Assembly: GCF_034044635.1 (NCBI RefSeq) | Contig: NZ_JAXCLX010000001.1 | Coordinates: 2,108,001 to 2,172,000 of the forward strand | Direction: 5' to 3' | Source of the DNA: Dongia rigui | GTDB lineage: Bacteria > Pseudomonadota > Alphaproteobacteria > Dongiales > Dongiaceae | Length of the DNA: 64,000 bases | Part shown: piece after piece, positions 815-62,063 of the stretch | Position numbering within the stretch: the stretch's first letter is position 1 | How the letters are laid out: each line of letters starts with the position of its first letter | Program-made: the position numbers and the translations under genes | Notes under the pieces: model-generated | Told to the model about the DNA's origin: nothing | Seen by the model: the letters and a program-made list of their open reading frames with translations, nothing else | Database searches by the model: none

Positions 815-1708
815 TTAGGGATTCTGGACTTCGGCCAGAATCCAGTCGCGGAAGGTCCGGGCCGGATGCGCCAGGCGCTCGCCGGCCCGCTCCACCAGGT
901 AGAAGGCCTCGCTGCTTTTGATCTTCGCTGCACAGGGGGCGACCAGCCGCTTTTCCGCCAGCAGCCGGTCGACGAAACAGGATCGCCCCAGCATGAAACC
1001 ACTGCCGGCGAGGGTCAGGTCCACGGCGAGGCTTGCCGTGTCGAAGACGACGGCCTCCGTCGCAGCACCCGCCGGGAAGCCGGCGCCGCGGAACCAGTCG
1101 GTCCAGCCTTCGGCGAAGCTTGCCACATGGATGAGGCGCTGCCGGCTAAAGGCTTCCGGCGGCAAGGGCCGCGGCAATCCTTCCGCCAGTTCCGGCGCGC
1201 AGACCGGAAACAGCCGGTCGCGCGTCAGCCGATAGGCGGTGAGCTGCGGCCAGGCGCCGATACCGCAACGGATCTCGAAATCCGCGTCGCGGTCGATCTC
1301 CAGCGGCGTCCACAGCGTGGTCAGAAGGCGCAGCCGCATATCCGGATGCTGATTGAGGAAACGCGGCAGGCGGGGCGCCAGCCACAAATGCGCAAAGCCG
1401 GCGGTGACGCGCACCGACACGTCTGCCGCCGACCGCCCATGGAAGATCTCATCCGTCCCCGCCCCCAGCCGGTCAAAGGCATCGCGGATGACGGTGAGGT
1501 AGGAAAGACCCGCCTCAGTGAGGCTCAGCCCCTGCGGCCGGCGCAGAAACAGGCTCTGCCCCAGATGCTCCTCCAGCGCCTTGACCTGCTGGCTGATGGC
1601 CGCCGCCGTGACGCCCAGCTCGTCGCCGGCCCGGGCAAAGGAAATGTGCCGGGCGGCGGCTTCAAAGGAGCGCAGCATCCCTAAGGGCGGCAGCTTACGG
1701 AACGTCAT
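815..1708 (-). CDS. LysR-family regulator, probable choline-sulfate utilization activator
   Basis: A 297-residue LysR-type regulator: an N-terminal winged helix-turn-helix (PLGMLRSFEAAARHISF, then ELGVTAAAISQQVKALE) followed by a periplasmic-binding-protein-like effector domain. It is of the GcvA-like subgroup. It is transcribed divergently from betC with only 114 bases between the start codons, and a LysR-type palindrome lies between them, so it very likely controls betC and itself. The ATG at 1708 is preferred; a GTG at 1717 would begin almost inside the operator. The pairing of such a regulator with choline-sulfatase is a known arrangement; the inducer is inferred. Confidence 0.85.
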   Translation of the reverse strand: MTFRKLPPLGMLRSFEAAARHISFARAGDELGVTAAAISQQVKALEEHLGQSLFLRRPQGLSLTEAGLSYLTVIRDAFDRLGAGTDEIFHGRSAADVSVRVTAGFAHLWLAPRLPRFLNQHPDMRLRLLTTLWTPLEIDRDADFEIRCGIGAWPQLTAYRLTRDRLFPVCAPELAEGLPRPLPPEAFSRQRLIHVASFAEGWTDWFRGAGFPAGAATEAVVFDTASLAVDLTLAGSGFMLGRSCFVDRLLAEKRLVAPCAAKIKSSEAFYLVERAGERLAHPARTFRDWILAEVQNP

Positions 1709-60483: not shown

Positions 60484-60513
60484 AAAACGCCCCGCTTTCA
60501 CGCGGGGCGTTTT
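60484..60513. terminator. Bidirectional rho-independent terminator between ptsN and the DUF1150 gene
   Basis: AAAACGCCCCGC pairs perfectly with GCGGGGCGTTTT around a 6-base loop, with A- and T-runs on both flanks. It can serve ptsN and the convergent hsp20-DUF1150 unit. Confidence 0.88.
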
Positions 60514-60538
60514 CTATTTCCAAGGACGATGCGCTGGT

Positions 60539-60772
60539 TCAGTGAAGGGTGACCGGGGCCAACCCGTTCTCCCAGGCAGCGGCGACCGCCGCATCGCGAT
60601 CCGGCATGACGGCCAGCTGCTGGCCATTGGCGGCGAAGATGCCGAACGCCGTCGCGCCATCCACGTCGACATCGCGCACATAGGCGACATCGTTGAGGCC
60701 CAGCGCCAGCAATTGCTGGCGGGTGATTTCATGGGCGTCGATGATCTCGGTCTTCGTGGTGCTCTTGGCCAT
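60539..60772 (-). CDS. DUF1150-family small protein
   Basis: A 77-residue protein, MAKSTTKTEIIDAHEITRQQ and on to TAFGIFAANGQQLAVMPDRDAAVAAAWENGL. DUF1150 proteins are found after hsp20 in many alphaproteobacteria. The start is 2 bases after the hsp20 stop, so the two are translationally coupled. The function is unknown; a role in protein quality control is inferred from neighbourhood. Confidence 0.87.
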   Translation of the reverse strand: MAKSTTKTEIIDAHEITRQQLLALGLNDVAYVRDVDVDGATAFGIFAANGQQLAVMPDRDAAVAAAWENGLAPVTLH

Positions 60773-60774
60773 GA

Positions 60775-61272
60775 TTACTGCTCCTGCTTCACGGTACGCC
60801 CAACATCGTGGCGACCGGATTCCTTGTGCGTATCGATGCTGACCCGGGCCTCGTTCTCGGCACTGCCCTTGCGAATGGGCACGGTGCGGATTTGTGTCTC
60901 GACCCTGGGCCGGTCGAGATCGATCGACAGCAACCCGTTGTCGAGTGTGGCACCGGCAACCTCGATACCCTCGGCCAGAATGAAACTGCGCTGAAACTGG
61001 CGAGCGGCGATGCCGCGATAGAGGTAGACCCGCGCCGGATCGTCCTTCTGCTTGCCGCGAATGGTGAGCTGGTTGTCCTCGAGCTGGATATCGAGATCAT
61101 CGAGCGTGAAGCCGGCGACCGCCAGCGTGATGCGCAGCCGATAATCGCTGACCTGCTCGATATTGTAAGGCGGATAGCCTTCGGCACCGGCCTTGGCGAC
61201 TCGGTCGAGCGTGCGCTCGAACTGGTCGAAGCCCAAGAGGAGCGGGCTGTTGAAGAGGGACAGGCGCGACAT
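60775..61272 (-). CDS. Small heat-shock protein Hsp20 (IbpA-like)
   Basis: A 165-residue alpha-crystallin domain protein (about residues 38-135: YPPYNIEQVSDYRLRITLAVAGFTLDDLDI, RGIAARQFQRSFILAEGIEV, NGLLSIDLDRP) with a short N-terminus MSRLSLFNSPLLLGFDQFERTLDRV typical of bacterial IbpA-like proteins. It binds unfolding proteins under heat without ATP. The ATG has a strong AAGGAGGA site which is folded in a ROSE-type hairpin (listed). An RpoH-type promoter lies upstream and DUF1150 downstream. Confidence 0.93.
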   Translation of the reverse strand: MSRLSLFNSPLLLGFDQFERTLDRVAKAGAEGYPPYNIEQVSDYRLRITLAVAGFTLDDLDIQLEDNQLTIRGKQKDDPARVYLYRGIAARQFQRSFILAEGIEVAGATLDNGLLSIDLDRPRVETQIRTVPIRKGSAENEARVSIDTHKESGRHDVGRTVKQEQ

Positions 61273-61273
61273 G

Positions 61274-61293
61274 GCTCCTCCTTTCGAGCGAGC
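61274..61293 (-). ncRNA. ROSE-like RNA thermometer hairpin over the hsp20 ribosome-binding site
   Basis: In the mRNA, GCUC-G-CUC pairs with GAG-GAGC around the loop GAAAG: seven base pairs with one bulged G. The right arm and loop contain the Shine-Dalgarno GGAGGA, three bases before the AUG. The left arm contains U-C-G-C-U, the ROSE signature UYGCU, pairing with AGGA with the G unpaired, as in ROSE elements of rhizobial small heat-shock genes. Melting with heat would expose the site. Confidence 0.7.
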
Positions 61294-61408
61294 GGTACTG
61301 CTTCAGCTTATCCGGCACCCGTCATCGGCTTGCCGGTCTTCGGCCCCGACCGTGGAAAACGCGCCTTTGTGGGCTCAATTTCCCCCGGTCATCCGGGCAC
61401 CTTGCTAG

Positions 61409-61439
61409 ATGAGATAGTAATCTAGGTTAAGAAATCAAG
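61409..61439 (-). promoter_or_regulatory. RpoH (heat-shock) promoter of hsp20
   Basis: On the minus strand CTTG (61436-61439) is followed after exactly 17 bases by ACTATCTCAT (61409-61418), matching the alphaproteobacterial sigma-32 pattern CTTG-N17-CYTATNTNNG at most positions. The implied leader is about 130 bases, room for a ROSE element. Confidence 0.6.
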
Positions 61440-61520
61440 TCAGGGTTATGACGGAACCGGCTTGCGCCGCTGCTCGGCCGCGCTAAACTATTCAGGGGAC
61501 AAGAAAATCGGGGGAATTAC

Positions 61521-62063
61521 ATGATCGTGACTGAATCGCGTCGCCGCCTTTTGCGCCACCTCGCCGGTTTCGCGGCCCTGACGGCTTCAGCGCCGCTCCT
61601 CGGCGCCTGTGCCGGCCCCGGCGGCGGGGCAGGCTCCGATAGCGGCCAGGGCCTGCTCAAAATCGAGGAAACGCCGGCGACCCAGGCCACCAAGGACCTC
61701 TGGGCCGCCGCGCAATCTGGTGACGTTGCTGCCACCAAGGCGGCCCTCGCGGCCGGTGCCGATATCGAGGGCATCGACTTCTCCGAAAACCACAATGGCC
61801 GCCGGGCGCTCAATTATGCCGCCCTCAACGACCATGCCGAAGTGATCGAAGTCCTGCTGGCGGCCGGTGCCAATATCGAATCCGAAAATCGCACGCGCTT
61901 CCACCCGCTTCACCATGCGGCCGAAGCGGGATCGATCAACGCCATCAAGGTGCTGCTGAAGCACGGCGCCAACAAGCGCGCCAAGATGTATCGCGGCGGG
62001 ATCCCCCAGCAGATCGCCGAGTTCAAGGGCCATCGCGAGGCCGCCTTGCTGCTGGTCCCCTGA
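61521..62063 (+). CDS. Ankyrin-repeat lipoprotein with twin-arginine signal
   Basis: A 180-residue protein. The signal carries SRRRLLRHLAGFAAL (twin Arg) and the lipobox LLGAC with Cys30, so it is probably a Tat-exported lipoprotein. After a Gly/Ser linker, three ankyrin repeats run from about 58 to 175: DLWAAAQSGDVAATKAALAAGADI, ALNYAALNDHAEVIEVLLAAGANI, PLHHAAEAGSINAIKVLLKHGANK. Ankyrin repeats bind proteins; the partner is unknown. GGGGGAATTAC precedes the ATG. Confidence 0.85.
   Translation: MIVTESRRRLLRHLAGFAALTASAPLLGACAGPGGGAGSDSGQGLLKIEETPATQATKDLWAAAQSGDVAATKAALAAGADIEGIDFSENHNGRRALNYAALNDHAEVIEVLLAAGANIESENRTRFHPLHHAAEAGSINAIKVLLKHGANKRAKMYRGGIPQQIAEFKGHREAALLLVP

Follow-up and report, generated by a model that had tools for sequence, protein, structure and literature searches.

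The 5' UTR of the hsp20-larA gene pair of Dongia rigui is, judged from its sequence and its conservation, very likely a ROSE-type RNA thermometer, a translation switch that heat would open. The window (the whole 64,000-nucleotide stretch of D. rigui DNA that was analysed) carries a predicted ROSE-type hairpin over the Shine-Dalgarno (SD) sequence of hsp20 together with an RpoH-type promoter, a combination that is well supported by the comparison of orthologous loci. The features of the locus, from the promoter downstream, are as follows, with bulged bases in brackets.

61412 to 61439, minus strand: RpoH (sigma-32)-type promoter, CTTG-N17-ACTATCT, read from the sequence and conserved upstream of orthologues.
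61312 to 61336, minus strand: upstream hairpin, CCGGCA-AG-CCGAUGACGG-G-UGCCGG, from the minimum-free-energy (MFE) fold, with an equivalent hairpin in relatives.
61274 to 61293, minus strand: ROSE-type SD hairpin, GCUC[G]CUC-GAAAG-GAGGAGC, read from the sequence, found in the MFE fold, conserved and covarying in orthologues.
60775 to 61272, minus strand: hsp20 gene, Hsp20 small heat-shock protein (PF00011, E 3.9e-16).
60539 to 60772, minus strand: DUF1150 gene, likely LarA (Lon activator) orthologue (PF06620, E 1.8e-12).

By gene content and order, we identify the hsp20-DUF1150 pair as the shsp2-larA operon of Alphaproteobacteria. The DUF1150 gene lies directly downstream of hsp20, beginning 2 nt past its stop codon and preceded by an AGGAG of its own, and encodes a protein that ends in PVTLH. 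Through this operon partner the hsp20 gene (60775-61272) is assigned to the orthologue group of Caulobacter sHSP2; the closest records by protein similarity to the window's Hsp20 are from Dongia and other Rhodospirillales. A DUF1150/LarA-like ORF follows hsp20 in 100 of the 103 loci examined, and 94 of these 100 downstream proteins have a C-terminal H, mostly in a VSVH-like ending, which fits the C-terminal degron of LarA (PMC10665427). In Caulobacter, LarA binds and activates Lon via this degron, and sigma-32 controls shsp2-larA directly (PMC10665427). As a separate observation, a Guanidine-II riboswitch match (L004 334-378) lies close to hsp20 in a congener, with 32.7 bits against a cut-off of 32.

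Immediately before its start codon the hsp20 mRNA reads GCUCGCUCGAAAGGAGGAGCC-AUG. The arm GCUC[G]CUC pairs with GAGGAGC across a GAAAG loop (61293-61274), leaving G61289 bulged; UCGCU is thereby set against AGGA, which is the ROSE core, and the SD sequence GGAGG is sequestered. This hairpin, first noticed in a sequence-only reading of the window, is present in the MFE folds of both the whole 5' UTR and the local segment. The UTR has the hallmarks of the ROSE-like class: U(U/C)GCU imperfectly paired with the SD and one bulged G in the stem, a downstream heat-shock gene, and two to four hairpins, predicted and covarying, of which the 3'-most contains the SD. The stability of the local segment is ordinary for its composition (z = +0.5 versus shuffles), and the bare pattern YTYGCTY-N2-9-RAGGRR occurs in the window's genome at chance frequency (29 matches versus 35 for the reversed control), so that the case rests on position and conservation.

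The orthologue set was drawn from 116 relatives and the genome collection, and the DNA before each start codon yielded 143 distinct upstream regions. In 121 of these, U(U/C)GCU precedes AGG(A/G) with suitable spacing, an arrangement seen in 8% of dinucleotide shuffles of the same DNA in which the SD was kept. The core motif is absent from 22 of the 143, in some of them because the start codon has probably been misassigned. The pairing, whose conservation in relatives the sequence-only reading had asked for, is kept: among 122 motif-bearing orthologues the closing pair (C-G in 105, G-C in 9, A-U in 1 and U-G in 5) is formed in 121, where 1000 shuffles reach 107 at most, although the register was chosen for best pairing, which slightly inflates the raw count but not the co-occurrence of G and C. 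In several lineages CUCGCUC/GAGGAG has become GUCGCUU/AAGGAC, both flanking pairs switching together, and the loops, 4 to 19 nt long, have no conserved sequence. The predicted design of the SD hairpin is thus conserved in more than 100 related bacteria.

The CTTG-N17 heat-shock promoter proposed in the same reading also holds. Its boxes, CTTG at 61439-61436 and ACTATCT at 61418-61412, are separated by 17 nt and predict a transcript start near 61405. Upstream of the orthologues, CTTGA is found in 120 of 143 regions (12.6 expected from shuffles) and typically has a -10 sequence such as CCCATAT or ACTATTT 16-17 nt further on. A CTTG(A) -35 box, a spacer of about 17 nt and a C-rich/TAT -10 box before a heat-shock gene are what is expected of an RpoH promoter, and hairpin and promoter signals occur together in 104 of 122 cases.

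Nearest-neighbour energies at 37 C place the SD hairpin at -8.6 kcal/mol, next to -8.7 for the canonical ROSE hairpin of the paralogous hsp20 gene. Removal of the bulged G would bring the window's hairpin to -12.4 kcal/mol, a gain of 3.8 kcal/mol, and the medians for the orthologous SD hairpins are -5.3 with the bulge and -9.0 without. We infer that the hairpin represses hsp20 and is opened by heat. In the mechanism that we propose, RpoH would transcribe hsp20-larA upon heat or protein-folding stress; as long as the cell is cool, CUCGCUC would mask the SD in a short hairpin that is destabilised by its one bulged G and sits behind a more stable hairpin of the same bulged-G design; upon warming, the SD hairpin would open, the ribosome would bind and Hsp20 would be made. 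LarA synthesis probably follows hsp20 translation by coupling, or uses its own SD.

The strongest competing explanation, which we nevertheless regard as unlikely, is that the hairpin is real and represses but is no thermometer: initiation would be constantly low and heat induction would come wholly through RpoH, in line with the sigma-32 control documented for the Caulobacter operon (PMC10665427). The stem is G+C-rich, and the accessibility of the SD computed from the partition function is nearly flat, at about 0.18 between 20 and 55 C, which would suit such a constant brake; the canonical ROSE element of the paralogue is equally flat. What argues for a thermometer is the bulged G, for which simple repression has no need but which is kept in the 122 motif-bearing orthologues, where its loss would add about 3.7 kcal/mol (median). 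In ROSE elements that have been tested, heat induction is reduced or lost when the equivalent G is deleted (PMC3669281, PMC11342760). Our literature search found no experiment on the hsp20-larA UTR or on orthologous UTRs.

The bulged G is not confined to the SD hairpin. Most of the UTRs have a second hairpin just 5' of it, built as stem, Y[G]CC, loop, GGR, stem; this Y[G]CC:GGR hairpin is found in 107 of 122 orthologue UTRs, versus about 8 in mononucleotide shuffles, and 32 of the 122 have two (0.2 in the shuffles). In a scan of the same UTRs for single-base 5' bulges flanked by five outer pairs, only G was in excess (110 of 122 versus 35 in shuffles), with A, C and T at or near the shuffled level. 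The stems of the upstream hairpins vary in sequence between orthologues yet still pair. In a sister species the counterpart of the window's upstream hairpin reads CCGGUA-C[G]CC...GGG-UGCCGG, the bulged-G form; the hairpin of the window has the same place and stem, but an A.G mismatch replaces the sister's C-G pair beside the bulge, a position held by a Y-R pair in the relatives. For the 5'-most hairpin, hairpin I, no clean form was resolved within the window's genus.

We give very little weight to the idea that the conserved hairpins are instead bound by a regulatory protein or small RNA that controls the operon. The fixed Y[G]CC:GGR core of the upstream hairpin, so often duplicated, does resemble a recognition module; the stems, however, vary freely with pairing kept, the loops are not conserved and the last hairpin always contains the SD. 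Canonical ROSE elements, which function without protein, have the same two-hairpin design.

We built a covariance model of the two hairpins, R1, from 18 sequences picked for having both; the seed was laid out with uniform spacing, since MAFFT alignments of whole UTRs or of the bare hairpin misplaced some SD arms. In this alignment 97.8% of cells are paired, 31 cells are double-changed versus 6.6 in shuffles, and the covariation score is 0.42, against 0.05-0.11 for structures slid by 1-3 columns; given how the seed was picked, these values measure covariation given the fold and not how frequent the fold is. Across the genomes of the 116 relatives, 24 of the 25 best R1 matches lie directly 5' of hsp20 orthologues, at least six of the 24 coming from seed genomes. 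The remaining match (in G090) was set aside as chance, as it adjoins a MerR-like gene with no hsp20 or other heat-shock gene nearby. R1 found no match at E <= 1 in the window's own genome, owing to the divergent upstream hairpin; within the window, its top match is the SD hairpin, partial and weak (13.2 bits, E 0.35). That a purine-rich SD merely happens to lie beside a pyrimidine-rich stretch in G+C-rich DNA, as the chance frequency of the bare pattern and the unremarkable local stability would allow, is an explanation that we regard as virtually dead, since it is already refuted by conservation across families (121 of 143 against 8%), by covariation and by model matches specific to hsp20.

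The comparative evidence therefore upholds the core of the earlier interpretation, a ROSE-type SD hairpin with an RpoH-type promoter, but not the novelty that it attached to a location outside the rhizobia. ROSE-type thermometers are known from diverse alpha- and gammaproteobacteria (PMC4166951), Caulobacter is named among the organisms with classical ROSE elements (PMC3669281), and a sigma-32 promoter and a ROSE element act on one sHSP gene, ibpA, in Pseudomonas (PMC3669281); the novelty claim is unsupported for this reason. As far as the literature examined shows, what is new is a conserved element at the shsp2-larA operon, absent from Rfam and with a repeated bulged-G plan. A literature search for shsp2-larA or LarA together with RNA thermometers or translational control returned nothing on the subject.

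These observations would extend ROSE-type control to the shsp2-larA operon in much of Alphaproteobacteria, a set of elements missed by current Rfam models. They suggest that temperature may directly affect how efficiently a Lon activator, toxic in excess, is translated: should larA, 2 nt downstream, be coupled to hsp20 in its translation, the thermometer would gate this activator as well. What the 5' hairpins do in ROSE elements has been described as incompletely understood (PMC3669281), a question on which the bulged-G design common to the upstream hairpins bears. A tentative idea, which we hold to be possible but doubtful, is that the element is built from repeats of one bulged-G hairpin module, of which the one or two extra upstream copies (one in canonical ROSE) cooperate with the SD hairpin by stacking, by folding jointly or by adding a second step of sensing, the thermometer thereby tuning the chaperone and, via LarA, Lon. 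In the literature examined, neither a thermometer before larA nor what the upstream copies do appears to have been described.

The Rfam models did not bear out the suggestion that a covariance search for ROSE might recover the element. RF00435 (ROSE; family cut-off 45 bits) gave nothing at E <= 10 in the region 60500-61700, nor at the orthologous elements, including 18 orthologue loci; scanning 20 loci with Rfam likewise returned no ROSE match to this kind of element. RF01832 (ROSE_2; cut-off 65 bits) matched neither the window's element, nor its genome, nor the orthologues; its scattered weak matches in relatives are not located at orthologous genes. The negative result over the element reflects its difference from the Rfam models: by a definition based on motif and plan we class it as ROSE-type, and as a member of neither Rfam family. 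One weak RF00435 match in the same genome (27 bits, G000:C2:124494-124579) was rejected as chance, there being no heat-shock gene at that place.

The genome's other hsp20 gene has an RF00435 match of 27.4 bits, below the cut-off (L002 1379-1477; G000:C1:1019471-1019569). This second element is a canonical ROSE, with a UUGCU:AGGA SD hairpin and a bulged-G first hairpin, and the canonical elements of many relatives likewise score below 45 bits; in four relatives RF00435 matches exceed the cut-off, in front of either small ORFs or genes of the other sHSP class. The first hairpin of canonical RF00435 elements (L032-L051) nearly always has a bulged G like that of the SD hairpin, and R1 matches several canonical elements weakly (16-21 bits). 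The bulged-G first hairpin, the UUGCU:AGGA pairing and these cross-matches indicate that the two kinds of element share a plan.

Two short ROSE elements, at about 1501-1574 in L035 and about 1501-1573 in L046 score 46.5 and 32.6 bits. The small ORFs behind them, about 61-68 aa long, lack a Pfam match and have a common ending, WPRVFP(G/Q)L; these are possibly unannotated heat-controlled small proteins. In L046, a glycosyltransferase gene divergent to the small ORF has its own ROSE-like SD hairpin (1280-1328, minus strand; R1, 23.7 bits), and the two may form a divergent thermometer pair.

Set beside known systems, the element shares with ROSE_2 (RF01832, E. coli ibpA) the general ROSE logic, while that model has no match here or at the orthologues. 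The likeness to ROSE proper (RF00435, e.g. Bradyrhizobium hspA) is closer, as both precede a small heat-shock gene, both have a U(U/C)GCU:AGGA last hairpin with one bulged G, and the first hairpin of the canonical elements in these genomes is also of the bulged-G kind; however, the window's SD hairpin is short and does not include the AUG, the Rfam model misses it, and it serves another sHSP paralogue, the one with larA, rather than the RF00435-bearing class of the same genomes. With Caulobacter crescentus shsp2-larA it has in common the gene pair, the sigma-32 control and a LarA C-terminus ending in H, whereas an RNA thermometer or translational control is absent from the description of that operon (PMC10665427). 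In architecture it resembles the short ROSE-like element of Pseudomonas ibpA: two hairpins, the first GC-rich and stable, under a sigma-32 promoter, the short second hairpin holding the SD, with G-C pairs on either side of U(U/C)GCU and the AUG unpaired (PMC3669281). It differs from the latter in sequence, in the length of the UTR (about 130 nt versus about 60), in its operon with larA, and in that elements of the window's type sometimes have three bulged-G hairpins in a row.
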